Shown in pieces: positions 11,999 to 32,439 of a stretch of 34,095 bases of DNA. The position numbers and the translations under genes are program-made. The notes beneath the pieces were generated by a model. It ran no database searches and had not been told where the DNA came from. It saw only the letters and a list, made by a program, of their open reading frames with translations. The stretch is from Chitinophagia bacterium. GTDB lineage: Bacteria > Bacteroidota > Bacteroidia > Chitinophagales > Chitinophagaceae. How positions within the stretch are numbered: position 1 is the stretch's first letter; every line of letters begins with the position of its first letter. Location: assembly GCA_021324175.1 (NCBI GenBank), contig JAJPJP010000307.1, positions 1 to 34,095 of the forward strand. Reading direction: 5' to 3'.

Positions 11999-12449
11999 GA
12001 TGCAGGTAATCCAAAGGAGGTAAGAGAGTTGTTATCAACTCTGAAACACAGTGAGGACAAAATCAATTATCATGGAAAGCGAGCCGATGCTATTGAAAAA
12101 GGTATGCTCCAACACTCTCGTTCGAGCTCAGACGCAAAAGAGCCAACTGATATCAACGCCCTGGCCAATGAATATTTACCCTTGGCGTATCACGGCTTAA
12201 GAGCAAAAGACGATTCCTTTAATGCGACCATGAATACTAATTTAGATGCCAGCATGGGAAAAACAAAAATCATTCCGCAGGATATTGGTCGGGCTTTGCT
12301 CAACTTATACAACAATGCGTTTTATGCCGTGAGTGAAAAAAGTCAACGGCAGATTGAAGGCTATGAACCAGTTAATTCTTTGGGAGTAACCAGAATTTCG
12401 GTTTCTTTGTCGCACCTTGAAACAGAAGCTTGTGCTGTAGTTATAAGGA
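11999..12449 (+). pseudogene. Middle fragment of a third sensor histidine kinase
   Basis: The open stretch reads GNPKEVRELLSTLKHSEDKI, then NYHGKRADAIEKGMLQHSR, LRAKDDSFNATMNTNLD, the N-box ALLNLYNNAFYAV and SVSLSHLETEACAVVI. It then stops exactly where the DNGxG box should follow. The H-box, all sensor and membrane parts, and the G-boxes are absent, so it cannot be a kinase. It is homologous to the dimerisation/ATPase core of the kinase at 9695-11842, but reads on the opposite strand. Its last codons run into the start codon of the first pigment-cluster gene (12460), placing a rearrangement breakpoint at about 12449. A TTG start at 12029 could give a 144-residue protein, but that would be non-functional. 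Confidence 0.75.
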
Positions 12450-12459
12450 AAAAAAGCAA

Positions 12460-13752
12460 ATGAATTTACAAGACATAACTTTTCAGCCGGCCTCAATATT
12501 CAAAAAACTACAGGAAGAGAAACTGCAGCAATTATTATTGTATGTAAGCCATAACTCCCCTTTTTACAAAAAGCTTTTTATTGATCACAATATTGAAATA
12601 TCATCGATTAAATCCATTGACGATCTAAACCTTTTACCCACTACCTGTAAAGAAGACCTTCAACAGCACAACGATGACTTTATCTGCGTAAACCCGGAAA
12701 AAATTATAGAATATACATCTACTTCCGGCACATTGGGCAGCCCGGTTACTGTTGCTCTTACCGAACATGATCTTGAAAGACTTGCTTACAATGAATACAT
12801 GTCCTTCTTAACAACTGGTGGTAATACAAGGGATGTCTACCAGTTAATGCTAACACTTGACAGGCAATTTATGGCAGGTATAGCCTATTATTCTGGCATT
12901 CGAAAAATGGGTGGCAGTATTATTCGCCTCGGGCCTGGTGTGCCATCCTTGCAATGGGAAACCATATTACGCCTTAAACCAACTGCTATTGTTGCAGTAC
13001 CATCTTTCATACTTAAGCTTATACAATTTGCCAATGACAATAAAATTGATGTGAATTCGACAACCGTCAGGAAAGCTATTTGCATAGGGGAAAATATCCG
13101 TAACCTGGATTGCACATTGAACATTCTGGGCAAAAAAATAACAAGTTCCTGGAATATTCAGCTCTACTCAACCTATGCTTCTACCGAAATGCAAACAGCT
13201 TTTACTGAGTGCAGTGAGGGTAAAGGTGGCCATAACCGCCCTGAATTGATTATCGCAGAACTGCTGGATGAAAACAATAGTCCAGTACCCGCGAATGTAC
13301 CGGGTGAGGTAACTGTTACAACACTTGGTGTAGAAGGTATGCCGCTCGTGCGGTATAAAACGGGAGATATATGTGAGTATTTCGATGAGCAGTGCGCTTG
13401 CGGAAGGACCAGCATAAGATTATCGCCCTTATTGGGACGCAAAAAGCAAATGATAAAGTTTAAGGGTACCACGCTTTATCCAACTGCAATATTTGACATA
13501 CTTAATGATATGAAGGAAATACAGGATTATGTGGTAGAAGTACAAAACAACGAACTAGGTTTGGATGAAGTCTTGTTTTACCTGGTTGTCGCCGATGATA
13601 CGGCTGAAAATGACCATAAAATAAGGGCGTACCTCCAGGCAAGACTGCGTGTAAGCCCGCTGATTAAATATGTATCCGTGGAAAATATAAAACGAATGCA
13701 GTTTCCCGATGCAAACAGGAAGGCAATAAAATTTATAGATAAAAGGGAATAA
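12460..13752 (+). CDS. Aryl-CoA / AMP-forming ligase of the flexirubin cluster (PaaK-like)
   Basis: 430 residues from the ATG at 12460; an earlier in-frame TTG at 12430 lies inside the dead kinase sequence and was rejected. ATP-binding motif TSTSGTLGSP is at 86-95, TYASTEMQ is the adenine/aryl pocket segment, RYKTGDICEYF the hinge region, and CACGRTSIRLSPLLGRKKQM resembles the Cys-containing end of phenylacetate-CoA ligases. The likely role is activation of 4-hydroxycinnamate, made by the next gene's product, as an adenylate and thioester to prime polyene synthesis. Whether the acceptor is CoA or the cluster ACP is not shown. It is the first gene of arm A and follows a broken kinase gene by only about 10 nt, so it may lack its ancestral promoter. 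Confidence 0.85.
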   Translation: MNLQDITFQPASIFKKLQEEKLQQLLLYVSHNSPFYKKLFIDHNIEISSIKSIDDLNLLPTTCKEDLQQHNDDFICVNPEKIIEYTSTSGTLGSPVTVALTEHDLERLAYNEYMSFLTTGGNTRDVYQLMLTLDRQFMAGIAYYSGIRKMGGSIIRLGPGVPSLQWETILRLKPTAIVAVPSFILKLIQFANDNKIDVNSTTVRKAICIGENIRNLDCTLNILGKKITSSWNIQLYSTYASTEMQTAFTECSEGKGGHNRPELIIAELLDENNSPVPANVPGEVTVTTLGVEGMPLVRYKTGDICEYFDEQCACGRTSIRLSPLLGRKKQMIKFKGTTLYPTAIFDILNDMKEIQDYVVEVQNNELGLDEVLFYLVVADDTAENDHKIRAYLQARLRVSPLIKYVSVENIKRMQFPDANRKAIKFIDKRE

Positions 13753-13851
13753 TTGGGGCAATTACCGTTACCGGCCTGTTAAACAGCAAAAGCAAAACCT
13801 GCATATTTTTTTCTATTTTTACCCCTTTTGACGCTAAAAAAGATTTTGCCC

Positions 13852-15390
13852 ATGATTGCTGTTGGACAAAAAGCACTTTCTCTAAAAGATTTTTCTGATA
13901 TATTATATAATAAAGAGTCAATTGAGCTACATCAAGATGAATTGGACCGGGTAAAAGAAAATTTTAAATTCTTAAAAAGCTTCTCATCCAATAAAATAAT
14001 TTACGGCATAAATACAGGTTTTGGCCCCATGGCACAATATAAAGTGCCTGAAGAAAATCTTGTAAACCTTCAATACAATCTTATCCGCAGCCACAGTGTG
14101 GGCAGCGGCAATTTATTACCTGGCCTTTTAGCAAGGGCTTTAATGATTGCGAGGCTCAATACGCTGATGCGTGCTTATTCAGGAATACATCCCGACGTGG
14201 TATTCTTACTGGCGGAATTGATCAATAAGAACATCAGCCCCTGTGTTTATGAACACGGAGGTGTGGGTGCCAGTGGCGACCTTGTACAACTGGCGCATTT
14301 GGGCCTGACATTGATAGGTGAAGGGGAAGTTATATTTGAAGAAAAAGTATATCCAACTGCTGAAATATTTGAGCGGTTTAATGTAAGGCCTTTAACGATT
14401 GTGGGCAGGGAGGGGTTAGCTATCATCAATGGTACTTCTGCCATGACAGGAATAGGGCTGGTAAACATCATGATGGCGCACAGGCTGATAAAGTGGTCGG
14501 TTATTTTGTCCTCTATGATGAATGAAGTGGTGGAAGCTTACAATGATCATTATTCATACGAATTAAATATCTTAAAAGATCATACAGGTCAAAATCATAT
14601 TGCGGAAAGGATGCGCTTTATTTTGAGCGACAGCCGTTTGATACGCAACCGATCAGAACATCTTTATGGGCCGGATAGTATTGAAGAGGAGATATTTGAA
14701 GATAAAGTGCAGGAATACTATTCTTTGAGATGCGTCACTCAAATTTTGGGGCCTGTACATGATACTGTTTGCCAGGCTGAAAAAGTGCTCACGATCGAAT
14801 TAAACTCAGTGAACGATAATCCTGTCATAGATCATATTAACCGCAATATTTTTCATGGAGGCAATTTTCATGGTGATTATGTGTCGCTGGAAATGGATAA
14901 GTTAAAGGTTGCCATAACCAAACTGTCCATGTTATCCGAAAGGCAATTGAATTACCTGCTCAATAATAAGCTTAACCAAAAATTCCCTCCATTTATAAAC
15001 CTGGGTATATTGGGCTTTAATTTTGGTATGCAGGGTATGCAGTTTACGGCTACGTCGACAGTGGCTGAAAATCAAACCATGTCATTCCCCATGTATGTGC
15101 ACAGTATCCCCAACAACAATGATAACCAGGACATCGTAAGCATGGGTTGCAATGCTGCATTAATGACCCGGAAGGTCATTGACAACTCATTTACTGTTCT
15201 GGGCATACAGGCAATGTCAGTTTTGCAGGCAGTCGATTATATGCGCTGCCAGGAAAAGCTTTCTACCGTTACAAGAACGGTATATAATGAGATAAGAAAA
15301 ATATTTCCCATGTTTGTAGACGATCAGGTTAAATACAAAGAGTTGCAAAAAGTGAGAGCCTATTTACAGGTGACAGACGCAATAATTTAA
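13852..15390 (+). CDS. MIO-type aromatic amino acid ammonia-lyase, probably tyrosine ammonia-lyase
   Basis: 512 residues from the ATG at 13852 (a TTG eight codons upstream is possible). The catalytic Tyr51 is in IYGINTGFGPM. The Ala140-Ser141-Gly142 triad in GGVGASGDLVQ cyclises to the MIO electrophile. NSVNDNPVID and FHGGNFHGDY are further active-site segments. The substrate-selectivity loop reads NLIRSHSVGSG with Ser80-His81. Several stretches match, from memory, the tyrosine ammonia-lyase of the Flavobacterium flexirubin cluster, so tyrosine to 4-hydroxycinnamate plus ammonia is the expected reaction. Histidine ammonia-lyase is the alternative, but no hut genes are nearby. The aryl starter is passed to the ligase upstream. 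Cytoplasmic homotetramer by family. Confidence 0.88.
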   Translation: MIAVGQKALSLKDFSDILYNKESIELHQDELDRVKENFKFLKSFSSNKIIYGINTGFGPMAQYKVPEENLVNLQYNLIRSHSVGSGNLLPGLLARALMIARLNTLMRAYSGIHPDVVFLLAELINKNISPCVYEHGGVGASGDLVQLAHLGLTLIGEGEVIFEEKVYPTAEIFERFNVRPLTIVGREGLAIINGTSAMTGIGLVNIMMAHRLIKWSVILSSMMNEVVEAYNDHYSYELNILKDHTGQNHIAERMRFILSDSRLIRNRSEHLYGPDSIEEEIFEDKVQEYYSLRCVTQILGPVHDTVCQAEKVLTIELNSVNDNPVIDHINRNIFHGGNFHGDYVSLEMDKLKVAITKLSMLSERQLNYLLNNKLNQKFPPFINLGILGFNFGMQGMQFTATSTVAENQTMSFPMYVHSIPNNNDNQDIVSMGCNAALMTRKVIDNSFTVLGIQAMSVLQAVDYMRCQEKLSTVTRTVYNEIRKIFPMFVDDQVKYKELQKVRAYLQVTDAII

Positions 15391-15399
15391 AAGGCCAAT

Positions 15400-16128
15400 A
15401 TGAAATGCGCGCTTATTACCGGCGGTTCAAGAGGCATAGGCCGAGCTATCTGCATTAAAATGGGGGGGATGGGTTACCATGTGCTGATTAATTACAAAAC
15501 GAACACGGAGGAAGCCAATAAAACCCTTGAACAAATAAAGCAGAATAACGGTGGTGGTGAACTTTTGCAATTTGACGTCGCAGACAAAACGGCCATACAA
15601 TCGGTGTTGGGTAACTGGATGCAAACCAATGCAGAAAAATATATTGAAGTGCTGGTGAATAATGCAGGCATAAAAGATGATGTATTGATGAGTTGGATGA
15701 AAGATGAACAGTGGGAGAAAATAATTAAAACGAACCTCGATAGCTTTTTTTACGTTACAAAGCTGGTATTGAATGGCATGCTGGTTAGAAAATATGGAAG
15801 GGTCATTAATATCGTTTCTCTTTCAGGATTAAAGGGTTTGCCAGGCCAAACAAATTATTCTGCAGCCAAAGCAGGTGTAATCGGTGCTACCAAAGCTCTT
15901 GCACAAGAGGTTGCCAGGCACGGTATAACCGTAAATGCGATTGCGCCTGGGTTCATTAAAACGGATATGATTGAAGGCATTGAGGAAAAAGAGATACAAA
16001 GGCTTGTGCCAGCAAGGCGCATTGGTTTACCTGAAGAAGTGGCTTTTGCAGCCGCCTTCTTAGCTGCGCCGGAAGCAGGTTATATCACAGCCCATGTTTT
16101 GTCCATTAACGGAGGTTTATATTCCTAA
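15400..16128 (+). CDS. 3-oxoacyl-ACP reductase (FabG-like) of the polyene system
   Basis: 242 residues, classical SDR. TGGSRGIG is at 7-14, NNAG at 87-90, catalytic Ser140, Tyr153 and Lys157 are in IVSLSG and NYSAAKAG, followed by VNAIAPGFIKTDM, a FabG signature. It reduces the beta-keto group of the growing acyl-ACP with NADPH in each round, the step before dehydration to a conjugated double bond. It starts 9 nt after the ammonia-lyase stop, and the dehydratase follows after 2 nt, so the three are read together. It is the only clear ketoreductase in the cluster and would therefore have to serve both polyene and saturated chain building, unless the housekeeping FabG helps. Confidence 0.88.
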   Translation: MKCALITGGSRGIGRAICIKMGGMGYHVLINYKTNTEEANKTLEQIKQNNGGGELLQFDVADKTAIQSVLGNWMQTNAEKYIEVLVNNAGIKDDVLMSWMKDEQWEKIIKTNLDSFFYVTKLVLNGMLVRKYGRVINIVSLSGLKGLPGQTNYSAAKAGVIGATKALAQEVARHGITVNAIAPGFIKTDMIEGIEEKEIQRLVPARRIGLPEEVAFAAAFLAAPEAGYITAHVLSINGGLYS

Positions 16129-16130
16129 AT

Positions 16131-16553
16131 ATGACGGCCTCGGAAAATATTACAACCTTCCTCCCTCAAAGGTCACCTTTTATTATGGTAGGCAAGTTAT
16201 TGCATGCAGAAGAAAAAATAACTGTAACAAGTTATGTCATTGAGGAAGGTAACATTTTGGTGGAAGACGGAATATTTACAGAGGCAGGACTGCTTGAAAA
16301 TATTGCCCAAACAGCCGCTGCCGGCGCGGGGTATTACGCAACAATTGGAAATAAGCCTGTATTGAACGGCTACATAGGGGTAGTTAAAAAGTTTTTGTTA
16401 TTTGGATTGCCGAAGGTGAATGATGAATTAAAAACTGAAGTGAGGGAAATAAGCCGGTTTTTTAACATGCAAATTATACAGGGTAAAGTGTGGTCCGGCG
16501 AAAAACTATGGGCACAGTGTGAAATGAAGATATTTCTGCAGGAGATAAATTAA
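16131..16553 (+). CDS. Hotdog-fold dehydratase half-site subunit 1 (ApeP-like, Glu present, His absent)
   Basis: 140 residues, hotdog fold. The N-terminal LPQRSPFIMVGKLL matches the opening of FabZ-type dehydratases, and AGLLENIAQTAAAG aligns with the FabZ helix containing the catalytic acid, here Glu56. The HFPGxPxxPG segment that carries the catalytic His in FabZ is missing; the sequence goes from LVEDGIFTEAG straight into the helix. Alone it should not dehydrate. In aryl polyene systems a Glu-bearing ApeP subunit pairs with a His-bearing ApeI subunit, and the protein at 20719-21087 has exactly the reciprocal pattern. It starts 2 nt after the ketoreductase stop. A 91-nt gap follows, the largest within arm A after the ligase/lyase gap. 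Confidence 0.8.
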   Translation: MTASENITTFLPQRSPFIMVGKLLHAEEKITVTSYVIEEGNILVEDGIFTEAGLLENIAQTAAAGAGYYATIGNKPVLNGYIGVVKKFLLFGLPKVNDELKTEVREISRFFNMQIIQGKVWSGEKLWAQCEMKIFLQEIN

Positions 16554-16644
16554 TTATTAAACCCGCGATCCGAACAACAACGAAATACTATTACAGGGTA
16601 CATTGGTAATTGTTTCTAAACCATAGCCAACACAAAAAAAAATA

Positions 16645-17766
16645 ATGACAGACGTATTTGTTGTTTCGGATAGTGTCATTTCCCCGCTTGGCTCCACTTC
16701 AGCCGACAATTTTATGCAGCTTGAAAGATCAATATCGGGTGTAAGACGTCATGATAATTCAGCCATTTCTCCTCAGCCTTTTTATGCCGCTCTTTTTACC
16801 GGCGACAATTTTGCGAGTGATAATCCATACACAAAGTTTGAACAACTGCTTATTGCATCAATAAAAGATGCCTTGCAAAATACAGATATAGTAACGAGCG
16901 ACGAAAAAACAATCCTGATCATTTCTTCAACAAAAGGTAATATAGGTTTACTAGAAACGGAGGGCTATAACCATGCCCTGGAAAAAAGAATCTCGCTAAA
17001 TACCTCTGCAAACATGGTAGCAAGCCATTTAAATTTTATAAATAAACCGCTGGTTGTTTGCCATGCATGTATTTCAGGCTTGCTTGCCATTATTACAGCT
17101 CTTAGGTTGATAAAATCAGGAATATATGAAAATGCGGTGATTGCAGGCGCAGATGTAATTACGAAGTTCATATTATCAGGTTTTCAATCCTTCCAGGCGT
17201 TGAGCCCGGGTATTTGTAAACCTTTTGATGCCGAAAGAGATGGCATAAATTTAGGCGAGGGCGCAGCAACCGTTATAGTGTCTTCTAATAAAAGGTATGC
17301 GAATAACATAAAATTGAGGAGTGGCTCAGTAAACAATGATGCTAATCATATTTCAGGCCCTTCACGAACGGGCGAAGAGCTTTGCCTGGTAATAGACAAA
17401 GCGCTGACAGAAGCAGGCGTTTCTGCGGCTGAAATTGATTTTATTTCAGCACATGGGACTGCCACTATTTATAATGATGAAATGGAAGCGCAGGCAATTG
17501 CCTTAGCCGGCTTGCAGAATTCACCGGTAAACAGCATGAAAGCCTATTTTGGGCATACACTTGGTGCCGCAGGCCTTTTGGAATCGGCGATGACAATCCA
17601 ATCAATGCAGCGTAATACCGTTTTACCTTCATTGGGATTTACAAATATTGGCGTAACAAAACCGATAAATATTTGTAATACATTAATGCATATGTCTTTA
17701 GACAATTGCCTCAAAACCGCTTCTGGCTTTGGTGGCTGTAATGCGGCAGTTGTGTTCAGTAAATAG
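16645..17766 (+). CDS. Beta-ketoacyl synthase 1 (FabF-like, complete Cys-His-His)
   Basis: 373 residues, thiolase fold. The active-site Cys142 is in CHACISGLLAI, His270 in SAHGTATIYND and His304 in YFGHTLGAAG, so all three residues needed for decarboxylative condensation are present. The structural motifs INLGEGAATV and SGFGGCNAAVV are normal. It is shorter at the N-terminus than housekeeping FabF (about 410), but the fold is complete. Its likely job is chain elongation or initiation in the aryl polyene system, comparable to the extra KS (ApeR type) or the main KS (ApeO type). I cannot decide which. A second, half-length KS-like gene follows within 21 nt and could be its partner. Confidence 0.85.
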   Translation: MTDVFVVSDSVISPLGSTSADNFMQLERSISGVRRHDNSAISPQPFYAALFTGDNFASDNPYTKFEQLLIASIKDALQNTDIVTSDEKTILIISSTKGNIGLLETEGYNHALEKRISLNTSANMVASHLNFINKPLVVCHACISGLLAIITALRLIKSGIYENAVIAGADVITKFILSGFQSFQALSPGICKPFDAERDGINLGEGAATVIVSSNKRYANNIKLRSGSVNNDANHISGPSRTGEELCLVIDKALTEAGVSAAEIDFISAHGTATIYNDEMEAQAIALAGLQNSPVNSMKAYFGHTLGAAGLLESAMTIQSMQRNTVLPSLGFTNIGVTKPINICNTLMHMSLDNCLKTASGFGGCNAAVVFSK

Positions 17767-17787
17767 GAAAAACAATAATCAGGCTAA

Positions 17788-18414
17788 TTGAACATCAATA
17801 AATATATCCTCTCCCATTGTGCGATTAGTAAAAATGCTGTTTATAAGAACGGGCAGAAAATATTTGAAAAGGCCGCCGCAAATCCGCTGGATTTTTTACA
17901 TTCAACTTATGAGCACTTTAATTTAAACTATCCAAAATTTTACAAGATGGATGGTTTAAGTAAGCTTGGCTTGCTTGCATCAGACATATTGCTTGCCGGC
18001 GAAAGCATTATTAAAGATATTAGACCTCAGGGTATTGGAATTGTCCTATCCAACACCAATTCCAGCCTGGATATGGATATCAAATATTTGCAAAGCCTTC
18101 AGGATTTTGCCAGCCCGGCATTATTCGTATATACGTTGCCAAATATTGTAATCGGAGAAGTATGCATTCGTAATGGCTTCAAGGGAGAAAATGCTTTTTT
18201 TATTTTTGAAGATTTTAATGCAGCCTTTATTGAACAATATGTTAGCCATTTGCTGAATAATAATTTGTTGCAAATTTGTATTTGCGGATGGGTTGAATTT
18301 CTAAAGGATAACTACAAAGTGGTATTGTATTTAGCAGGTAAAACTGGCGGGCCCAGTGTCAAATTATTTACAAAAGAAACTATGGATAGTATATTTAACA
18401 ACGAAGCTTTGTAG
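17788..18414 (+). CDS. Half-length ketosynthase-like protein without catalytic residues (ApeC/chain-length-factor-like)
   Basis: 208 residues, equal to the N-terminal half of a ketosynthase only. The stretch RPQGIGIVLSNTNSSLDMDI matches the region before the active site, and YTLPNIVIGEVCIRNGFKGE matches the segment where other KS proteins carry the nucleophile helix, but there is no TACSS, HGT or GHxxGA motif. This fits the 'beta-ketoacyl synthase, N-terminal' family found in aryl polyene clusters, where such a protein acts as chain-length factor for the main KS. It must start at TTG (17788), since the first in-frame ATG would remove 53 residues. It ends directly against the next KS gene (TAG then ATG, no gap), suggesting coupled translation and a complex. 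Confidence 0.75.
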   Translation: MNINKYILSHCAISKNAVYKNGQKIFEKAAANPLDFLHSTYEHFNLNYPKFYKMDGLSKLGLLASDILLAGESIIKDIRPQGIGIVLSNTNSSLDMDIKYLQSLQDFASPALFVYTLPNIVIGEVCIRNGFKGENAFFIFEDFNAAFIEQYVSHLLNNNLLQICICGWVEFLKDNYKVVLYLAGKTGGPSVKLFTKETMDSIFNNEAL

Positions 18415-19635
18415 ATGCAATTAACAAAAAATACACCGCCTGTTTTTGTTGCCGGCGTTGGCGTTGTTTCTGCTATCGGCAATAATGCAGCAGAATGCCT
18501 ATCCTCGCTTGAAAATTACAAGGCAGGCATGGGGGCCATTACTCACCTGGAAACTTTGCATAATGAGCAACTGCCTGTGGCGGAGGTTAAGCTAAGCAAT
18601 AAAGACCTTGAAGATATCACTCGGATGGATTCGGGAACAAGCCGCACAGCTTTATTAAGTATGATGGCTGCAAAAGAGGCACTGCTTGATGCAGGCATTG
18701 ACAATATCTCTTCCCTGCGAACTGGTTTTGTTTCGGCAAATACTGTTGGCGGTATGGATAAAACCGAACAGTTCTACGCAGATTTTCTTTCTGATAATAA
18801 AAAAGGAAAATTGAGGGATGTGATAAATCATGAATGCGGCAAGGTTACAGACCTGGTGGCCGACGCTTTGGGAATAAATTCATATATAAGCACTATAAGT
18901 ACAGCATGTTCTTCTTCGGCAAATGCCATTTTTTTTGCAGCAAGATTAATTAAACATGGCATGCTTGATGTGGCGATTGCAGGTGGCGCCGATGCCCTAA
19001 CAAAATTTACCCTTAATGGGTTCAATGCGCTGATGATACTTGACAAAGAGTACTGCAAACCTTTTGATGACAAACGCCAGGGGTTAAATCTGGGAGAAGG
19101 AGCAGGCTATGTCGTTTTGGTATCGGCAAGAGTAGCAATGTCCCTAAAAAAAAACCTTTACTGTGAGTTGACCGGCTATTGCAATAAAAACGATGCTTAT
19201 CACCAAACCGCTTCTTCTCCCGATGGCACCGGCCCGTATCTTGCCATGAAGGGCGCACTCGCATTAAGCGGCCTTCAGCCTTCAGATGTAGACTATATCA
19301 ATTTGCATGGTACAGCTACGCAAAACAACGATTTTACAGAAGGCACCGCCATAAAAAGGTTATTTGATCCTAAATATCCACCCATGAGCTCAACTAAATC
19401 TTTTACCGGCCATACGTTGGGCGCGAGTGGTGGAATCGAGGCTGTCTTTTCAATATTTTCAATCATCCGCGGCATTATTTATCCCACCCTCCGCCTGCAA
19501 ACACCCATGCACGAATTCACTTTTTCGGCAGAATCCTTTTTTTCTGTAAAGGAGGATATAAGAAATGTTTTGAGTAATTCATTTGGTTTTGGTGGTAATT
19601 GCACTTCGCTGGTATTTTCAAAAATTACAGGATGA
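18415..19635 (+). CDS. Beta-ketoacyl synthase 2 (FabF-like, complete)
   Basis: 406 residues, full thiolase fold. Cys165 lies in ISTACSSSANAI, His298 in NLHGTATQNND and His333 in FTGHTLGASGG. GLNLGEGAGYVVL and NSFGFGGNCTSLVFS complete the pattern. It is a type II condensing enzyme for polyene elongation. It is very close in motifs to the ketosynthase at 22138-23325 on the other arm (both have TACSSSANAI and NSFGFGGNCTSL). The two likely arose by duplication, each followed by a chain-length-factor-like gene. The start overlaps nothing and abuts the previous stop. The end overlaps the next start by ATGA, a tight translational coupling expected for a KS/CLF pair. Confidence 0.88.
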   Translation: MQLTKNTPPVFVAGVGVVSAIGNNAAECLSSLENYKAGMGAITHLETLHNEQLPVAEVKLSNKDLEDITRMDSGTSRTALLSMMAAKEALLDAGIDNISSLRTGFVSANTVGGMDKTEQFYADFLSDNKKGKLRDVINHECGKVTDLVADALGINSYISTISTACSSSANAIFFAARLIKHGMLDVAIAGGADALTKFTLNGFNALMILDKEYCKPFDDKRQGLNLGEGAGYVVLVSARVAMSLKKNLYCELTGYCNKNDAYHQTASSPDGTGPYLAMKGALALSGLQPSDVDYINLHGTATQNNDFTEGTAIKRLFDPKYPPMSSTKSFTGHTLGASGGIEAVFSIFSIIRGIIYPTLRLQTPMHEFTFSAESFFSVKEDIRNVLSNSFGFGGNCTSLVFSKITG

Positions 19636-20690
19636 AAATATACATACGTTCAGTCGCATGCATATCGCCACAGGAAACTTTTGGCCCGGTGTCCTTTCTC
19701 GTTCGCCCTATCACCAATAATGGTAATTTCCTTAAAGCCATAGAACCCGCTTACGAAGCCATAATTGACCCTAGGCTAACAAGGCGAATGAGCCGCATAA
19801 TAAAAATGGGTGTTGCGGCTGCAATGGAGTGTTTATCGAAAGGCGGCATACCAAGCCCGGACGCGATTGTTACAGGAACGGCTTATGGCTGCCTGGAGGA
19901 TACGGGCATTTTTCTAAGTCAGCTTATTCGGCAAGGCGAGCAAATGCTTTCACCAACCGCTTTCATACAGTCTACCCATAATTCAGTGGGCGCGCAAATA
20001 GCGTTGATGCTTAAATGCAATGGGTACAACAACACATTTGTCCACAGAGGCTTCTCATTTGAAAGCGCTTTACTTGATAGCATGATGCTGTTGGAGGAAA
20101 AAGAATCTGAAAATGTTTTGTTGGGGGGCATTGATGAAATGACAGATGCAAGCTTTGCTATTCTAAGCCGATTTGGCTTGTATAAAAATGCACCTGTTTC
20201 CAACCTGTCTTTATTTCACTCAAAGTCAGCCGGTACGATCGGTGGAGAAGGTGCTGCATTTTTTCTCTTGTCATCCGAGCACTCTCAGAATGATTATGCC
20301 CAATTAGAAGGGCTTACTACTTTTTACAAACCATCATCCAGAACGGGTATTGCAAGAAACATTGCTGATTTTATCAACGCACATTCCTTAACGGCTGGTG
20401 AAATTGATCTTGTAATAACTGGAAAGAATGGTGACCAAAATCATGATAAGGTATATGACTTTTTGCATGAAAGCATATTTACTAACAATGCCGTAATTAA
20501 TTACAAATGCTTATGTGGGGAATACCCTACCGCTATTTCTTTTGCCATGTGGCTTGCTGCAAAAATTTTGAATGATGGGAAAGCCCCTGCCATTCTAGGG
20601 TACAGCGGCAACAAGCAAATAAAACGAGTACTGATATATAATAACTATCTCGGTATTCATCACTCGCTTATTTTGTTATCTGCCATTTAG
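19632..20690 (+). CDS. Chain-length-factor-like ketosynthase homologue 1 (all catalytic residues lost)
   Basis: 352 residues from the ATG at 19632, which overlaps the preceding KS stop (ATGA); a start at 19599 would overlap by 37 nt and lengthen an otherwise well-aligned N-terminus. The fold is KS-like (VLLGGIDEMTDA, GTIGGEGAAFFLLS), but the nucleophile position is Gly140 in FVHRGFSFES, the HGT loop is TGKNGD (263-268) and the GHxxGA loop is CGEYPTAISF. It cannot condense and should act as the partner of KS 2, shaping chain length. Its closest relative here is the gene at 21092-22132, which has the same VHRG and CGEYPT replacements. Both families begin with the same ISPQ(E/Q)TF element. Confidence 0.82.
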   Translation: MKIYIRSVACISPQETFGPVSFLVRPITNNGNFLKAIEPAYEAIIDPRLTRRMSRIIKMGVAAAMECLSKGGIPSPDAIVTGTAYGCLEDTGIFLSQLIRQGEQMLSPTAFIQSTHNSVGAQIALMLKCNGYNNTFVHRGFSFESALLDSMMLLEEKESENVLLGGIDEMTDASFAILSRFGLYKNAPVSNLSLFHSKSAGTIGGEGAAFFLLSSEHSQNDYAQLEGLTTFYKPSSRTGIARNIADFINAHSLTAGEIDLVITGKNGDQNHDKVYDFLHESIFTNNAVINYKCLCGEYPTAISFAMWLAAKILNDGKAPAILGYSGNKQIKRVLIYNNYLGIHHSLILLSAI

Positions 20691-20718
20691 TGAAATGTGA
20701 TATCGCTAAAAACACCGT

Positions 20719-21087
20719 ATGCTGATAAATAGCTTTTATACCCTGACTGTTTTAAATATACAGTCATCCACCGCTAATATAACAGTCCAGTTGAATGAAA
20801 AACATGCTATTTATAATGGACATTTTCCTGGGCAGCCTATTGTACCAGGCGCATGCTTAATGCAAATGGTGAAAGAAATTACTGAAGTTATCATGGAAAG
20901 TAAACTGCAAATGTTAAGGGCTGATGAACTTAAGTTTATTTGGCCTGTAAACCCTGTTAATGACAATATTTTGCAAGGAATCATTGAGTACGTGGTTGAT
21001 GATAAAAATCAAATAAACATTGTTGCGAATTTTTCTCAAAATAGTAAAGCATGTTTTAAATGTAAAGCTGCATTTATACGTAATTAA
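20719..21087 (+). CDS. Hotdog-fold dehydratase half-site subunit 2 (ApeI-like, His present, Glu replaced)
   Basis: 122 residues. The FabZ signature NGHFPGQPIVPG is intact with catalytic His35. The catalytic acid, 14 residues later in FabZ, is Gln49 here (GACLMQMVKEITE). That is the reverse of the protein at 16131-16553, which keeps the Glu and lacks the His. In FabZ-type enzymes His and Glu of one site come from two subunits, so a heterodimer of these two proteins would have one working site, as in ApeI:ApeP. It dehydrates 3-hydroxyacyl-ACP to the conjugated enoyl chain. It is the last gene of arm A, with its stop 4 nt from the stop of the opposing gene. Confidence 0.8.
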   Translation: MLINSFYTLTVLNIQSSTANITVQLNEKHAIYNGHFPGQPIVPGACLMQMVKEITEVIMESKLQMLRADELKFIWPVNPVNDNILQGIIEYVVDDKNQINIVANFSQNSKACFKCKAAFIRN

Positions 21088-21091
21088 AATG

Positions 21092-22132
21092 TTATTCAGT
21101 TTTTGACACGAGCATGAAGCTATGCTGCACCCCCTTATGACAATTGTAAATAAGAATATTACTATACGTTGTTTTTGAATCGCCCTTTTTTAGCATGTGC
21201 GCGGGCAATGGAACACCGCTAATTAATTTACATGCAAGCCACAATGCAAACGCTGAAGAGGTTGGATATTCCCCACACATATGCTTAAACCTTGCTACGG
21301 CAATATCATTTTTCAGTAGATTTTCAGCATTTGCATAATATGCCAAAAGACGAGAATCCCCATTTTCACCGCTTAATAACAGGTCAATATTTGTGTTGAT
21401 ATGCTGTTCTAAAAATTGTTGTAGATGTTGTTGCATCTTCATTGCAACTATAGTATGTAAGGTTGATATATTTACAACCTTCGCGACAGCATTGTATTTA
21501 TCATTATTAACCAGCAGCATCACGGCTCCTTCGCCGGCAACCGTTCCTGTTGTGTTGGAGCTATAAAACCCCCCACTGGAAATATCCTCTTTTTTATACC
21601 ACCCGTCAAGACATTCTAATTTGTAATTGTAAGAAGATATTTCATCAACTCCTCCCAATAAATAACAATTGCGTGCATTTTCCCGCAAAAGCATTGCTGT
21701 ATCTATAGCTGCCATTTCAAATGCCAACCCCCTGTGCACATGTGTAATATTATAGCCCCTGTTAAGGCTTGCCAGGCTTAATTGGGATGCCAGGGCATTT
21801 GCCGTGCTTTGTACAAAATGGCCTGGTGTTAAAAGCCCCTCGTTATACTCGATAATCTCTTTTAAAAAAATGACACTATCTTCCATACCGCCATTCCCTG
21901 TGCCAATTATTATTCCGTTAAACCCTTCAACCTGCTTGATGAGAGGCATGGCCGCGCCTATACCGATTCTTGCCGTCTTGCCCATCCTGCGCAAACTGTT
22001 TTTAGGCATATCATTGTAAGCAGGTTCTACTGCATGTAGTCTGTTATTTACAGGTGTCTCTAAATCATCAATGGCTGTATTGTAAAATGTTTGCTGCGGA
22101 GAAATACAGCTTGTCTGATGAATATAGAACAT
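21092..22132 (-). CDS. Chain-length-factor-like ketosynthase homologue 2 (all catalytic residues lost)
   Basis: 346 residues from the ATG at 22132 (MFYIHQTSCISPQQTF), preferred over a TTG at 22141 because it aligns with the start of homologue 1 (MKIYIRSVACISPQETF). Nucleophile region VHRGLAFEMAA, HGT-loop region SGENGDSRLL and GHxxGA-loop region CGEYPTSSAFALW all lack the catalytic Cys, His and His. VAGEGAVMLLV and YLLGGVDEIS keep the fold motifs. It starts 5 nt after the stop of the ketosynthase at 22138-23325, so it is the natural partner of that enzyme. Last gene of arm B, convergent with arm A. Confidence 0.82.
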   Translation of the reverse strand: MFYIHQTSCISPQQTFYNTAIDDLETPVNNRLHAVEPAYNDMPKNSLRRMGKTARIGIGAAMPLIKQVEGFNGIIIGTGNGGMEDSVIFLKEIIEYNEGLLTPGHFVQSTANALASQLSLASLNRGYNITHVHRGLAFEMAAIDTAMLLRENARNCYLLGGVDEISSYNYKLECLDGWYKKEDISSGGFYSSNTTGTVAGEGAVMLLVNNDKYNAVAKVVNISTLHTIVAMKMQQHLQQFLEQHINTNIDLLLSGENGDSRLLAYYANAENLLKNDIAVARFKHMCGEYPTSSAFALWLACKLISGVPLPAHMLKKGDSKTTYSNILIYNCHKGVQHSFMLVSKTE

Positions 22133-22137
22133 ATGCG

Positions 22138-23325
22138 TCAAGATTCAGAAAAGATCAATGAAGTGCAATTGCCGCCAAAACCAAATGAGTTGGACATTAC
22201 ATGCTTTATCGGCAGCTTGCCATACGTTGTTGCGGGGCTAAGACCTATATTTTTGTCAATGTCAGTGAAATGCAGGCTTGGATAAACTTCCTGGTTAATG
22301 ATATTAAATACGCTGTATACAGCTTCGATGGCGCCCGAAGCTCCCAATGTATGCCCGATATTTGATTTTGTAGAAGTAAATACAGGGGGCTCGCCAAATA
22401 CGCGCCTCATCGCCCTGGTTTCTACCTCATCATTATTTTCAGTGGCGGTTCCATGCGCATTAATTAAATTAATATCACTTGCCTGCAATTGCCCCGAAAC
22501 CAATGCCCCCATCATGGCTGCATAGGGACCTTCACCATCATCTGACAAGGAAGTAGAATGAAATGCATCGCTGGTGTTGCAATAACCCTTTACTTCTGCA
22601 TAAACTTTTTTGTTCCTGGCGTCTTCTTCTTTTTCAAGTACGAGAAAAGCAGCACCCTCACCCAGATTTAAGCCCTGCCGATTGCTGTCAAAAGGCCTGC
22701 ATATCTCGGGCGAAAGAATATGAAGGGCATTAAAGCCGTTAATCGTAAATTTTGATAAGCTGTCTGCCCCGCCGACAATTGCCTTAGTAACCATGCCAAG
22801 CCTTATAAGCCTTGCCCCATACATAATTGCATTGGCCGATGATGAACAAGCAGTATTAACGGTATTAGCCAGCCCATTCATTTTATAGCGTTTATGCAGG
22901 TAAAGAAAAACGGATGAACAATCATACGAATCAAGGAATGGCGAATTCATACCCTTGTCATTTGCATCCCGGTACAACTCATCTGTTAAACACATGCCCC
23001 CAACTGTAGTTGCACCGATTAAAGCCGTATTAGGGGATGTTAATTGCTCGCGTGACAAGCCTGCGTCATCCAAAGCTTCCTCAAAAGCATGTGCAGCCAA
23101 TACGGTTGTGCGTGTCACGGAATTATCAGTAATGTTAAGCCTTGATTTTAATGTTTCAGTTGTTATTTTAATTTCTCCTGCGGGAAAAATTTCAGCGTAC
23201 CTTGAATGGAGGTAATCGGGCAAGCTAATTCCACATATACCCTTTCTGAGAGCTGTATGGTTTTCACGAGCAGATGGGCCCAAAGCGCTTATAATTCCAA
23301 TGCCTGTGATTAAGACCTTTGACAA
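22138..23325 (-). CDS. Beta-ketoacyl synthase 3 (FabF-like, complete)
   Basis: 395 residues. Cys160 is in NTACSSSANAIMYG, His291 in NAHGTATENND and His325 in NIGHTLGASGA. The N-terminal VLITGIGIISALGPS and C-terminal NSFGFGGNCTSLIFS are standard. It condenses malonyl-ACP with the growing chain. It follows the ACP gene by 11 nt and precedes chain-length-factor-like homologue 2 by 5 nt, giving an ACP-KS-CLF cassette like a minimal type II PKS. It resembles KS 2 of arm A more than KS 1 or KS 4, so the two KS/CLF pairs look like duplicates facing each other. Confidence 0.88.
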   Translation of the reverse strand: MSKVLITGIGIISALGPSARENHTALRKGICGISLPDYLHSRYAEIFPAGEIKITTETLKSRLNITDNSVTRTTVLAAHAFEEALDDAGLSREQLTSPNTALIGATTVGGMCLTDELYRDANDKGMNSPFLDSYDCSSVFLYLHKRYKMNGLANTVNTACSSSANAIMYGARLIRLGMVTKAIVGGADSLSKFTINGFNALHILSPEICRPFDSNRQGLNLGEGAAFLVLEKEEDARNKKVYAEVKGYCNTSDAFHSTSLSDDGEGPYAAMMGALVSGQLQASDINLINAHGTATENNDEVETRAMRRVFGEPPVFTSTKSNIGHTLGASGAIEAVYSVFNIINQEVYPSLHFTDIDKNIGLSPATTYGKLPIKHVMSNSFGFGGNCTSLIFSES

Positions 23326-23336
23326 TCAATAGTAAT

Positions 23337-23600
23337 TTATTTGGTTCCGTTCTGCTCAATATAGTCGACCATGGTATTTACATCAACCAAAATTTTACGG
23401 CCTTCCTTTGGATCTCTTATAACGATGCCATATTCCCTTTGCAGCAGCACAATTAGCTCCAGAGAATCTATTGAATCCAATCCCAACCCGTCACCAAATA
23501 AAGGTTCATCATCCTTAATATCTTCAGGCTTTAAGGATGTCAAATTCAAAAATTCAATAATCTGCTTCTTTAATAGCAGCTTTAATTCTGTTTTTTCCAT
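23337..23600 (-). CDS. Acyl carrier protein 1
   Basis: 87 residues, acidic, four-helix ACP size. The phosphopantetheine attachment is Ser43 in GLGLDSIDSLELIVLL. DDEPLFGDGLG before it and the VDVNTMVDYIEQ helix at the end fit the fold. The Ile after the active Ser is slightly unusual; Leu is commoner. It carries the growing polyene chain and probably presents it to the BtrH-like transferase encoded upstream in the same operon. Needs activation by a phosphopantetheinyl transferase such as the one at 32686-33378. Sits 10 nt after the permease stop. Confidence 0.9.
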   Translation of the reverse strand: MEKTELKLLLKKQIIEFLNLTSLKPEDIKDDEPLFGDGLGLDSIDSLELIVLLQREYGIVIRDPKEGRKILVDVNTMVDYIEQNGTK

Positions 23601-27083: not shown

Positions 27084-28229
27084 TCAGCATACGGAAAGCA
27101 TGGCATACATATATGAAAAACGGGCACTTTCCGGCACTAGCAACAATAATTTTTCACCCTTTTTCAACCGGCCGCTTTTAAACAGCTCATGTACCATAAA
27201 ATATACCGATGCGGCGCCTACATTACCCAATGTGGTTAAATTCACAAACCACCTTTCGTAGGGCACATATCTGCCTAAAACACTCATTACCTCAAAGATT
27301 TTGCTCTTAAAATACTCGCTTGACATGTGGGGCAAAAAATAATCGATATCATCCACGTCAAGGCCCCTTCGGTCTGCAATATCTTTTATCCCTTTGCCCC
27401 CCAGCGGAACGATATTGTTGCTTAGCACAGCAATATCCTGCTTGATGCTAAAAATAGATTTGTTGATAATTTCTTCGGGTGAAAAATCGAGGTAGCTTTT
27501 AAGTGTCCCATCGGCCCGTTTTTCACCTGCCATGTACATACAGGTTTCCATTTCATTGGCATACGATATTCCTTCAATCCAGTCAACCCGGAGGCTCAAA
27601 TCATTTTCATTAGGTTTGTTACTTAATAAAAAAGCCGAAGCACCATCTGACAACATCCACCGTAAAAATTCCTTATCGAAGCTTATAAAAGGGTTTTCGC
27701 TCAACTCCTGCAATTTATGGGCTTCTTCCTCAAAAACATTCGCAACAAGAGAACCTGAAAATCTTTCCGAGCCGGTAGCTACCGCATTTCCCACATCACC
27801 GGTTTTAACGGCCATGTAAGCATATTTAAATGCATGCATGCCTGCACAGCAAACACCTGAAGGAGAAACCACCTCAATTGACCTTGTTTCAGGTAAACAA
27901 CCATGCACCATTACTCCGTGAGAAGGCATCATTTGATCCGGAGAGGATGTTCCACAGGAAAGCAGTTCAATCTCCCGAAGTTTTTGCCCGTCATTATCAA
28001 ATAATCTTCGAACGGCCTGTGCGGTCATTTCCGCATTACTGTGCGTTGCTTTGCCTTCTTTATTTAGCGCATAATACCTGGTCTTAATACCATTATTGCG
28101 CAATACTATCTTTTTTGACTTTGATGGCTTACCGTTGATATAGCCAAGGTATAGTTCCATCTCTTCGTTTGAAACCGGATCGTTGGGAAGAAAAATGGAA
28201 GTATTTGTAATATAAACTTCGTTAAGCAT
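27084..28229 (-). CDS. darB: DarB-like 3-oxoacyl-ACP synthase III, resorcinol-forming condensing enzyme
   Basis: 381 residues from the ATG at 28229. KAS III fold with Cys128 in SPSGVCCAGMHAF, His301 in YFLPHMSSEYF and Asn336 in TLGNVGAASVYF, the Cys-His-Asn triad of FabH-type enzymes. In dialkylresorcinol synthesis DarB condenses a beta-ketoacyl thioester with a second acyl thioester to give the precursor that DarA aromatises. The adjacent darA gene, 14 nt upstream in the same direction, makes this assignment much stronger than 'FabH-like' alone. The chains to be joined are probably made by arm C. Confidence 0.85.
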   Translation of the reverse strand: MLNEVYITNTSIFLPNDPVSNEEMELYLGYINGKPSKSKKIVLRNNGIKTRYYALNKEGKATHSNAEMTAQAVRRLFDNDGQKLREIELLSCGTSSPDQMMPSHGVMVHGCLPETRSIEVVSPSGVCCAGMHAFKYAYMAVKTGDVGNAVATGSERFSGSLVANVFEEEAHKLQELSENPFISFDKEFLRWMLSDGASAFLLSNKPNENDLSLRVDWIEGISYANEMETCMYMAGEKRADGTLKSYLDFSPEEIINKSIFSIKQDIAVLSNNIVPLGGKGIKDIADRRGLDVDDIDYFLPHMSSEYFKSKIFEVMSVLGRYVPYERWFVNLTTLGNVGAASVYFMVHELFKSGRLKKGEKLLLLVPESARFSYMYAMLSVC

Positions 28230-28243
28230 CACAATGTTTCTTA

Positions 28244-29143
28244 TTAATTCAATTTTAAACAGGCGCGCTTTTTCGCGCTCACATATTTTGGCAGGAAAGG
28301 TTTAAAAATCATAAGGTCAATCATAAATACGATTGGAGCAAATACAAAAAGTACAATTAAAAGATAATATTTGAATGCAGTAAGCCATATCTTCCTTTTT
28401 TTGGTTTTTACAATAAGCCGGGCCCAAATCTTAAACATCATGGCCGCTTTTGTTTCCATAAATATCAAATGAAATTCAGGCACAACAGCTTTATTGCGAA
28501 TCAATTCTTCCATCAGCCCGCTCCACTCATTTTTTTTCAGGTATGGCAAAGTTAGAGAACCAAACCGTTGAGTGTTTGATATATCCTTATCTGCCACGCC
28601 AGGCTTTGGAAAAAAACCCAAATACCTGCTTTTTCTACCATCCATCATCCAATGAAGAATAGTAAAAATGCTCACAAGATTCAAATGCCTGTCAACAAGT
28701 GCCACGGTCCCCACATGATTTGCACCAGCCTCATTCAATAATTTTTTTACTTTATCAAAAGCGTTCACCCACATATTCCGTGCTCCCGTTATGGTAATTA
28801 CCGGGGCATTCTTCACAACTTGTACAAAAGACGATTGAAGCATTAAAGAATTAATTGGTATACTCGGTGATAGAAACCACGGCTGATAGCCTACAACAAT
28901 TAAGTCGTAAGAATGTTCTTTTAAGGTGAATGATTCAAGTTCAGCAGGAACTCCTAATATACAATCGGGCATAACACTAAAAAAATCTTTGCTGGCCCAG
29001 GGGAAAGGGTAATCATTTTTTAAGGTGATCTGCACCTTTTCAACTGAAACGCCATCGTTAATTAAAGGCAGGCAAAAATTATCCATTATTTCTCTTAGCT
29101 GCCCTGATTGGGAATAATAAATAGCCAATACTTTTTTATCCAT
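28244..29143 (-). CDS. darA: DarA-like dialkylresorcinol-forming enzyme with a C-terminal membrane segment
   Basis: 299 residues. The N-terminal third is flavodoxin-like: VLAIYYSQSGQLREIMDNF at 5-23 is a phosphate/FMN-binding loop, followed by LIVVGYQPWFLSPS and VITITGARNMWVNAFDKVKK, segments I recognise from DarA-type proteins of flexirubin clusters. DarA is known as the partner of DarB that completes the aromatic ring of dialkylresorcinols. Residues about 257-280 (FKYYLLIVLFVFAPIVFMID) are a clear hydrophobic helix, so the protein is probably held at the inner membrane. It begins 11 nt after the stop of the small secreted-protein gene and precedes darB by 14 nt. Confidence 0.82.
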   Translation of the reverse strand: MDKKVLAIYYSQSGQLREIMDNFCLPLINDGVSVEKVQITLKNDYPFPWASKDFFSVMPDCILGVPAELESFTLKEHSYDLIVVGYQPWFLSPSIPINSLMLQSSFVQVVKNAPVITITGARNMWVNAFDKVKKLLNEAGANHVGTVALVDRHLNLVSIFTILHWMMDGRKSRYLGFFPKPGVADKDISNTQRFGSLTLPYLKKNEWSGLMEELIRNKAVVPEFHLIFMETKAAMMFKIWARLIVKTKKRKIWLTAFKYYLLIVLFVFAPIVFMIDLMIFKPFLPKYVSAKKRACLKLN

Positions 29144-29154
29144 GCGCCGCGGAG

Positions 29155-29646
29155 TTAAAAGTCCGAACTATGAAGTATTTTCGACGTTTTGCTGTAATCA
29201 ATAACGACCTGTTGAACGGCAGGTAATAAATTTTTGTAGTTTTTTTTAATGTAATCTGCATCTTCTTCGAGCTGTGCGTGGTATTTTATTGCCTCAGGAG
29301 CATGTTCCTGAATAATAAGTCGCAGAAAATGATATTCTGTGTTGCTACCGTTATTGCGCAGCTCAGTTTCTAATTTTATGCGTCCTTGCTTAAAAAGTCT
29401 AAGTTTCTCTTTTGGTTTTCTTACCAAGCCTGCCTTCTTCATCAACAAGGCACCTTTATACGCTTCCTTTTCGTCGATAGACGAAGCTTCAATAACCAAT
29501 ATTTCCTTGTCTATATCATCAACTTTTTGCCCCTTTAGAATACTATAAAATGCAACCCTGTCGACATTTCGTTGTAAATGGGCCGCTTTGCTATTTTTTA
29601 AAAACCCAGTTAATACAAAAAGTGAAATAAATAATTTAATTTTCAT
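29155..29646 (-). CDS. Secreted protein of unknown function, first gene of arm B
   Basis: 163 residues. Signal peptide MKIKLFISLFVLTGFLKNSK to about residue 22 (cut near AA-HL), then a highly charged helical protein (SIDEKEAYKGALLMKKAG, KEKLRLFKQGRIKLETELR, ADYIKKNYKNLLPAVQQV). No Cys for lipidation. It should be periplasmic. Being the first gene of the DarA/DarB operon it likely has a role in pigment handling outside the cytoplasm. No family recognised with certainty. A -7 box TATATTTG sits about 20 nt before its ATG. Confidence 0.65.
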   Translation of the reverse strand: MKIKLFISLFVLTGFLKNSKAAHLQRNVDRVAFYSILKGQKVDDIDKEILVIEASSIDEKEAYKGALLMKKAGLVRKPKEKLRLFKQGRIKLETELRNNGSNTEYHFLRLIIQEHAPEAIKYHAQLEEDADYIKKNYKNLLPAVQQVVIDYSKTSKILHSSDF

Positions 29647-29865: not shown

Positions 29866-30672
29866 ATGGAAAACAAAAAACAATTTGCAGGCCTTTGGGC
29901 GGTCATATTGGGCGGTTCAAGTGGATTTGGTCTTGCGTCTCTAATCAAATTGGCGCAACATGGCATGAACATAGCTGTTGCGTATCGCGAAATGGCTTCG
30001 CAGGAAAAAGAATTAATAAAAACTCTTTTGGAAATTGCGAACGTTAATGGCGTAACGATTTTACCCTGTAATATTAATGCACTTGACGAGCAGGGCAGAA
30101 ACCTCTTCATACAAAAGCTTGGCGAAGCAACGGGCACTAAAAAGTGCATACGGATCCTTTTGCATTCCATAGCGAGGGGTAGCTTAAAACCACTTGTCTC
30201 AGATGAAACCGGTGCCGGCAATCTTTCCCTTGAGGATATACAGCTCACAAGCTATGCCATGTCAAACAGTTTGCTGGACTGGGCAAGAATATTATTACAA
30301 CGAGATTTTTTTTGTGAAGATGCGCGTATTATTGGACTTACAAGTGAGGGATCGGGTAAATATTGGGAAAACTATGCTGCTGTTTCCATTGCTAAAGCTT
30401 CACTCCAAAGCCTGGCTACATATATGGCGGTAGAATTTGCTAAATACGGGCTTAAAACAAATCTCATACAGGCTGGAATAACACGAACACCTGCATTAAA
30501 AAAGATGTCCCGCAATGAAAATCTGGCAGAATTTGCGACGAAAAGAAATCCTTCGGGAAGGCTTACACTTCCTTCAGATGTAGCAAATGTTATCTATCTG
30601 TTATGCACCGATGAAGCTGCCTGGATAAATGGCGCGGTTATTCATGTGGATGGCGGCGAGCATTGTTGTTAA
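29866..30672 (+). CDS. FabI-like enoyl-ACP reductase (SDR family)
   Basis: 268 residues. GGSSGFG at 16-22 is the cofactor loop, LLHSIARGSLKPL (98-110) resembles the FabI HSIA segment, MSNSLLDWARIL replaces the FabI S-x-Y region, and the catalytic pair is Tyr170 and Lys177 in NYAAVSIAKASLQ. The spacing Y-x6-K is that of enoyl reductases, not the Y-x3-K of ketoreductases. The end INGAVIHVDGG is standard. It should reduce enoyl-ACP to saturated acyl-ACP, which polyene synthesis does not need but the alkyl chains of a dialkylresorcinol do. First gene of arm C, transcribed away from arm B. Confidence 0.75.
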   Translation: MENKKQFAGLWAVILGGSSGFGLASLIKLAQHGMNIAVAYREMASQEKELIKTLLEIANVNGVTILPCNINALDEQGRNLFIQKLGEATGTKKCIRILLHSIARGSLKPLVSDETGAGNLSLEDIQLTSYAMSNSLLDWARILLQRDFFCEDARIIGLTSEGSGKYWENYAAVSIAKASLQSLATYMAVEFAKYGLKTNLIQAGITRTPALKKMSRNENLAEFATKRNPSGRLTLPSDVANVIYLLCTDEAAWINGAVIHVDGGEHCC

Positions 30673-31161: not shown

Positions 31162-32439
31162 ATGGGCAGTAGAGTAGTAGTTACAGGTTTAGGAGTAGTA
31201 GCCCCAAACGGGGTTGGAATACCGGCTTTTTTGGCTGCACTTAAAAATGGAAGCTCTGGCGTCAAATATATGCCTAAGTACCAGGAGCTTAATTTTAACT
31301 GCCAGGTATGTGGCATGCCCGAATTTGAATTAAGTGATTTGGAAAGTTATCTCTCAGAAGTCGCTTTGTATGGCCTGAGAGGCAGTACTATAGGTTACGC
31401 AGTCAAAGCAGCTGCCGATGCGTGGCTTGACGCAGGCAATACGCTCAATAATGAAGAACTACTGTGGGAAACCGGGTGTGTATTTGGCAATAGTGTAGCA
31501 GACACTGAGGCGATGAAAAGAATTATTGAGTTTGTCGATGCAAAACAAGCGCGTAAATTGGGCTCGAGAATTGTTGAGCAGCTTATGAACAGCGGCGCAA
31601 CGGCGTATATTTCAGGTTTACTTGGATTGGGTAACAGGGTCATAACCAATTCTGCTGCCTGCGCTACAGGTTCACAAGCTGTTCTGATGGGATATGAATA
31701 TATTAAACATGGCACGACAACAAGAATGGTAGTTGGCAGCAACGAATATGTCGACCCATATATTTTTGGGGCCTTTGACAGTATGCGAATCTTGGCCAGG
31801 AAATTTAATCATGCGCCACAACAGGCTTCCAGGCCTATGAGTGCAACTGCAGGCGGATTTGTACCGGGATCCGGGGCCGGCGCCTTGGTTTTGGAAGACC
31901 TTGAATTTGCACTATCGCGAAACGCGAACATTTATGCTGAAGTATTAGGGGGTGAGACGAATTCAGGTGGCCAAAGAGGTGGTGGCACAATGACGTCGCC
32001 TAACCCAGAGGGTGTTGTAAGTTGTATAAAAAATGCCTTAAAAAATGCAGGTGTGGAGGGTAAGGATATAGATCTTATAAGTGGGCATTTACCAGCTACT
32101 GCTGCCGATAAGATGGAAATTGAGAACTGGGCAGCGTCACTTAACAGATATGGGGATGATTTTCCATTGACTAATTCAGTTAAATCAATGATAGGACATT
32201 GCCTGAGTGCTGCGGGATCTATTGAGATCGTGGCTTTAATTTTGCAAATAATGCACAAATTTGTGCATCCGAATATAAATTTAGAGGATCCAAATCCTGA
32301 AATTGCTAAAATTGTAAGTTTGGAACGCCTACCAACAAAATGTATATCTAAAGACATAAAAATTGCCGCTAAAGCCAATTTTGGCTTTGGTGATGTTAAT
32401 ACCTGCTTAGTTTTTTCTAAATATGAAAAAAATGGATAG
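31162..32439 (+). CDS. Beta-ketoacyl synthase 4 (FabF-like) of the saturated-chain module
   Basis: 425 residues. N-terminal VVVTGLGVVAPNGVG, Cys167 in NSAACATGSQAV, His346 in SMIGHCLSAAGS and C-terminal NFGFGDVNTCLVFS are normal. The first His loop reads ISGHLPATAADKMEIEN, with His309 in place, but GHLPAT instead of the usual AHGTST/AHGTAT. Catalysis should be possible, with an altered loop around the His. It is flanked by FabZ-like and ACP genes and would elongate the acyl chains for DarB. Its end overlaps the ACP gene by 8 or 17 nt depending on the ACP start. Confidence 0.85.
   Translation: MGSRVVVTGLGVVAPNGVGIPAFLAALKNGSSGVKYMPKYQELNFNCQVCGMPEFELSDLESYLSEVALYGLRGSTIGYAVKAAADAWLDAGNTLNNEELLWETGCVFGNSVADTEAMKRIIEFVDAKQARKLGSRIVEQLMNSGATAYISGLLGLGNRVITNSAACATGSQAVLMGYEYIKHGTTTRMVVGSNEYVDPYIFGAFDSMRILARKFNHAPQQASRPMSATAGGFVPGSGAGALVLEDLEFALSRNANIYAEVLGGETNSGGQRGGGTMTSPNPEGVVSCIKNALKNAGVEGKDIDLISGHLPATAADKMEIENWAASLNRYGDDFPLTNSVKSMIGHCLSAAGSIEIVALILQIMHKFVHPNINLEDPNPEIAKIVSLERLPTKCISKDIKIAAKANFGFGDVNTCLVFSKYEKNG

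Follow-up and report, generated by a model that had tools for sequence, protein, structure and literature searches.

A putative split-site dehydratase of flexirubin clusters: two hotdog proteins with complementary half-sites as a likely counterpart of ApeI:ApeP

The window, i.e. the whole stretch of 34,095 nucleotides analysed here from a Chitinophagia bacterium (contig JAJPJP010000307.1), is a flexirubin cluster: FlxY, FlxA and FlxB in the left arm and DarH, DarG and DarB on the minus strand pass their NCBIfam cut-offs, and flexirubin membership follows from FlxA, FlxB, FlxY and DarB. In the left arm, the plus strand encodes the putative acyl-CoA ligase FlxY (12430–13752, NF053551), the tyrosine ammonia-lyase FlxA (13828–15390, NF053541) and the ketoreductase FlxB (15400–16128, NF053542), which ends 2 bases before P0001 (16131–16553), an ApeP-like hotdog subunit of the Glu type. 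Two ketosynthases (16645–17766 and 18415–19635) and a ketosynthase-like protein (19599–20690), likely a chain-length factor, lie between P0001 and P0002 (20719–21087), an ApeI-like hotdog subunit of the His type; all these genes are on the plus strand, the ketosynthase-like gene immediately preceding that of P0002. Both hotdog genes are thus found within an aryl polyene type II PKS cluster together with FlxA, FlxB, FlxY, the ketosynthases and the Dar genes, while no enoyl reductase was recognised in the left operon that carries them. DarB, the dialkylresorcinol ketosynthase, is encoded on the minus strand (27084–28232, NF053539). The right arm comprises, on the plus strand, an enoyl reductase-like SDR (29866–30672) and, immediately next to it, a complete FabZ-like dehydratase, P0003 (30692–31153), with a ketosynthase directly downstream of the latter (31162–32439), together with a carrier protein (weak Pfam match) and a phosphopantetheinyl transferase. 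The frames of P0001, P0002 and P0003 are all open at these coordinates.

Several further frames were observed in the window. A protein of 208 residues encoded between the two ketosynthases (17788–18414, plus strand) has no Pfam or NCBIfam match and is the best match for 83 frames in related loci, the window's own included; by gene order it may be FlxL, perhaps a truncated ketosynthase-like partner, and FlxL is listed as a putative ketosynthase in the part of PMC3992019 consulted. The plus-strand frame at 12029–12463 is weakly similar to histidine-kinase ATPase regions (AtoS, 1.7e-5) and is possibly a remnant. Two proteins adjoining DarB on the minus strand (28244–29143 and 29155–29646) have no clear family; in related loci, 37 frames have the former as best match, mostly beside DarB, and 3 frames the latter. 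Besides, the minus strand at 21092–23600 encodes an extra ketosynthase, a ketosynthase-like partner and a carrier protein, so that several ketosynthase sets are present in one cluster.

P0001 carries Glu56 within LLENIAQTAAAGAGY and has no HFPG segment, as the original prediction had described it, and in the profile alignment with P0003 the region upstream of the Glu is five positions shorter in P0001. P0002, in agreement with the same prediction, carries His35 within NGHFPGQPIVPG and has Gln49 at the position that aligns with the FabZ Glu and with the Asp of ApeI. In profile alignments, Glu56 of P0001 coincides with the Glu of P0003, of solved FabZ chains and of the ELMAQT motif of E. coli ApeP, and His35 of P0002 with the His of ApeI, of P0003 and of 3ESI, an ApeI-like chain. 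P0003, which had been put forward as the complete dehydratase that offers a contrast, does contain both His45 and Glu59. The FabZ arrangement, with His and Glu in one chain, is therefore seen in P0003 and in neither P0001 nor P0002, and the residues support the idea of complementary half-sites in the latter two.

AlphaFold2 single-chain predictions gave P0001 and P0002 a hotdog make-up, with a mean pLDDT of 93.6 for P0001 (65 sequences) and 95.8 for P0002 (26 sequences); the structure alignments drew on 64 of 79 P0001 and 25 of 26 P0002 homologues that the related-loci set offered. In the predicted chains, Glu56 of P0001 and Gln49 of P0002 are each the sixth residue of a long helix. The ApeI:ApeP pair of aryl polyene systems had been named as the precedent, and this holds by profile matches of P0002 to chain A (1.3e-9) and of P0001 to chain B (2.4e-5) of 6QSR, entitled 'The Dehydratase Heterocomplex ApeI:P'. 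By profile comparison, the P0001 family scores 87.7% against ApeP and 0.1% against ApeI, and the P0002 family 96.6% against E. coli ApeI, slightly below its 97.1% against the FabZ-like P0003; the P0001 profile is likewise closer to FabZ chains (2.3e-8) than to ApeP. Chain B of 6QSR was also recovered by fold, with the top query TM-score (0.87 at 1.9 Å) among the 50 Foldseek matches listed for P0001, while chain A, although found by profile, is absent among the 50 fold matches listed for P0002; most of the matches listed are FabZ chains in the case of P0001, and FabZ or FabA chains in that of P0002. Grammbitter et al. 2019 is said to be the primary structure paper for the ApeI:ApeP heterocomplex. 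The kinship to ApeP and ApeI is distant and visible by profile comparison: P0001, searched as a single sequence among solved structures, gave one match (E 0.2), neither P0001 nor three relatives tried matched the Pfam ApeP-like family (PF22817), and P0002 reached 19 bits against the ApeI-like family (PF22818), below the 28.5 cut-off.

The likeness to the crystallised ApeI:ApeP complex (6QSR), from Xenorhabdus doucetiae, extends to the composition of the pair, namely a Glu-type hotdog protein without HFPG (ApeP) and a short His-type hotdog protein (ApeI), both detectably homologous to the window's proteins and encoded in a type II polyene PKS cluster. ApeI and ApeP are described as heterodimeric 'with a single active site' in the portion of PMC8041823 consulted, and in the part of PMC8253772 consulted 'most' core mutants are pigment-free. 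A term search of the main texts of two reviews (PMC12141560 and PMC12664062) found neither 'ApeI' nor 'ApeP'. In contrast to ApeI:ApeP, the pair studied here belongs to flexirubin clusters of Bacteroidota, and the P0002 family has Gln or Glu at position 49 where ApeI has Asp. FabZ homodimers share the hotdog fold and the His and Glu motifs, but FabZ has both residues in one chain, an arrangement absent from 146/146 P0001 homologues.

These homologues make up a set of 147 rows, 146 of them distinct and the window's P0001 included, from which a P0002 homologue (L110) and a duplicate (L152) had been dropped. Glu56, Ala59, Gln60 and Pro16 are identical in all 146, and an HFxxxP motif is present in none. 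Since 79 of the 146 came from a pattern scan whose patterns contain that Glu, the fair count for Glu56 is that among homologues found by whole-protein similarity, the window's included, where it is kept in 67/67. We rejected the possibility that P0001 is a degenerate remnant, given the invariant Glu56 and the confident predicted model, and likewise that of a recent duplication behind P0001 and P0002, as the two profiles do not match (0.4%).

In the P0002 family, from which the window's own P0003 had been dropped, His35, Pro37, Pro43 and Gly44 are present in 60/60 homologues, the window's P0002 included. Position 49 is never other than Gln or Glu: 46 Gln and 13 Glu among the 59 sequences on the tree, one short row having been left out, while the alternative count of Glu in 14/60 includes one contig twice (L108 and L152). 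At least 7 changes between Gln and Glu are required on this quick tree, in which 12/56 inner branches are starred and the window's row sits on a long branch. Glu occupies this position in L095, the window's nearest relative, which belongs to the same genus and shares its gene order. Gln49 as a family-wide loss of a half-site was rejected on these two grounds, and the claim that only a heterodimer would be active, which had relied on Gln49, lacks support in that form, given the Glu of L095. As Gln49 is not a family trait, only the P0001 family, judged by its motifs, always lacks half a site, namely the His loop, and obligate dependence appears to be one-sided. P0002-type proteins in 13/59 of the family could by motif keep a complete homodimeric site, and such Glu49 forms could act alone.

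The pattern of residues fits an arrangement in which Glu56 of P0001 and His35 of P0002 would form the working site while position 49 would face a dead one. We consider it quite probable that P0001:P0002 is the flexirubin counterpart of ApeI:ApeP and works as a heterodimer with a single site. Complex formation, activity and substrate are inferred here from the predicted single-chain folds, the residues, their conservation, the co-occurrence of the genes and the homology to ApeI and ApeP. The two proteins together would be the 3-hydroxyacyl-ACP dehydratase for the flexirubin polyene, a double-hotdog heterodimer whose working site would combine His35 in a loop of P0002 with Glu56 on the facing helix of P0001. 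The mirror site would be dead, P0001 having no His loop, and residue 49 of P0002 would drift between Gln and Glu for that reason. In every round of extension the heterodimer would follow the FlxB ketoreductase, and double bonds would accumulate because the P0001/P0002 operon has no recognised enoyl reductase. It is unlikely that a homodimer of P0002, or P0002 together with a housekeeping FabZ, does the work and that P0001 is non-catalytic or regulatory. Such a role for P0002 would draw on Glu at position 49 in 13/59 sequences, which would give these, the window's nearest relative L095 among them, a full FabZ-like pair of residues, and on a FabZ-like domain with both residues elsewhere in the genome, the last part of a 471-residue frame (G000:C176) that is probably an LpxC-FabZ fusion. 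Position 49 is nevertheless Gln in 46/59, the window included, and a non-catalytic P0001 would have no need of a Glu56 that is invariant in 67/67.

The pairing itself is in line with the distribution of the two genes. In a sample of 395 genomes of the phylum, the P0001 and P0002 profiles each have matches above the score gap in 36 genomes, and the two sets of 36 are identical, the gap lying between 92.6 and the next 42.9 bits for the Glu type and between 125.3 and 46.6 bits for the His type; of the 15 rows in the P0002 profile, 8 besides the window's own were taken from loci belonging to this sample. Matches below the gap, whose frames are mostly of about 150 or about 470 residues, suggest by frame length stand-alone and LpxC-fused FabZ. 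A distant outlier (L094, genome G335) is kept among the 67 homologues above and lies outside the 36 genomes; one earlier tally reads 37 because it was counted. P0001 and P0002 are thus in company in 36/36 genomes, a co-occurrence that shows a shared pathway rather than contact, as two members of a single cluster would be expected to occur together in any case. In the 47 loci with both genes, all 53 gene pairs are on one strand, and in three loci (L074, L077 and L150) the homologues adjoin each other. In one genome (G017), the gene of the Glu type and that of the His type sit on separate contigs. Seven loci (L130, L134, L141, L146, L147, L151 and L153) show a Glu-type hotdog gene with one ketosynthase, the other query proteins being unmatched within the fetched flanks; in their genomes, as in G017, the cluster seems to be split.

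It is very unlikely that P0001 pairs with P0003 or a housekeeping FabZ instead of P0002. Both candidate partners carry the His that P0001 lacks, and P0003 homologues occur in the same clusters in two extended loci (L199 and L200); yet among the frames of the other 135 loci, which are cut at their flanks, none matches P0003 best, so that most P0001 homologues have no P0003 nearby, and P0001 and P0002 homologues are together in every one of the 36 genomes. A complete FabZ-like protein in another arm, as had been suggested, and an enoyl reductase beside it were found again in the 2/2 extended loci, picked for extension since their clusters resembled the window's, where the enoyl reductase, FabZ-like protein, ketosynthase, carrier protein and phosphopantetheinyl transferase recur beside Dar genes. 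This arm fits a role in making the saturated chains of the dialkylresorcinol part, and a division of labour would follow in which the P0001:P0002 heterodimer serves the polyene and a homodimer the saturated chains.

Hotdog folds are used in many thioester reactions. That P0001 and P0002 form a hotdog complex with a thioesterase-like or isomerase-like role in the pathway is nevertheless hardly credible beside the proposed dehydratase, as both the catalytic residues and the closest structures point to FabZ and ApeI:ApeP and as FlxF and FlxS, in the part of PMC3992019 consulted, were earlier proposed as dehydratases in Chitinophaga pinensis. Counted from FlxA as the first frame, the P0001 homologue comes sixth in two Chitinophaga loci (L179 and L195), which fits the place of FlxF; P0001 is thus probably FlxF of C. 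pinensis by gene order, and P0002 is possibly FlxS, an assignment less certain than the former. FlxF and FlxS are named there as putative flexirubin dehydratases, and the part of PMC3992019 consulted presents the dehydratase as '(FlxF, FlxS)' rather than as a single heterodimer. Among the matches listed in a search of the open-licence literature, no title or abstract opening describes a heterodimeric flexirubin dehydratase. The split dehydratase is already known in aryl polyene systems, and what is added here is its probable flexirubin counterpart.

Again unlike ApeI:ApeP, flexirubin loci carry tandem Glu-type copies: in 24/36 genomes, two adjacent Glu-type genes accompany one His-type gene above the score gap. 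These tandem Glu-type hotdog genes adjoin DarB (L066, L067, L069–L073, L075, L076 and L079–L093). On a quick tree, the copies separate by their place, first or second, into two groups with one change each, against about 16 with shuffled labels. In these 24 genomes one His-type subunit might have two alternative Glu-type partners and so form two heterodimers, a reading we hold tentatively and think doubtful. Mycobacterial HadAB and HadBC are heteromeric dehydratases that have one subunit in common, and both catalytic residues reside within HadB. If the two-partner reading were true, the tandem genomes would hold a split-site analogue of HadAB/HadBC, with the difference that in P0001 and P0002 the residues are divided over two subunits. 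It is possible that they represent a new variant of the split-site dehydratase.

Altogether, the proposed P0001:P0002 heterodimer would extend the split-active-site dehydratase, known from aryl polyenes in Proteobacteria, to flexirubins in Bacteroidota, and would identify a Glu-type subunit that is missed by Pfam and matched in NCBIfam only far below cut-off. The Gln or Glu at position 49 and the presence of one or two Glu-type subunits would offer a natural series for probing the advantage of a half-site heterodimer over a FabZ homodimer. If two heterodimers are indeed formed in the tandem genomes, they would be two dehydratases that differ in chain-length or substrate preference.
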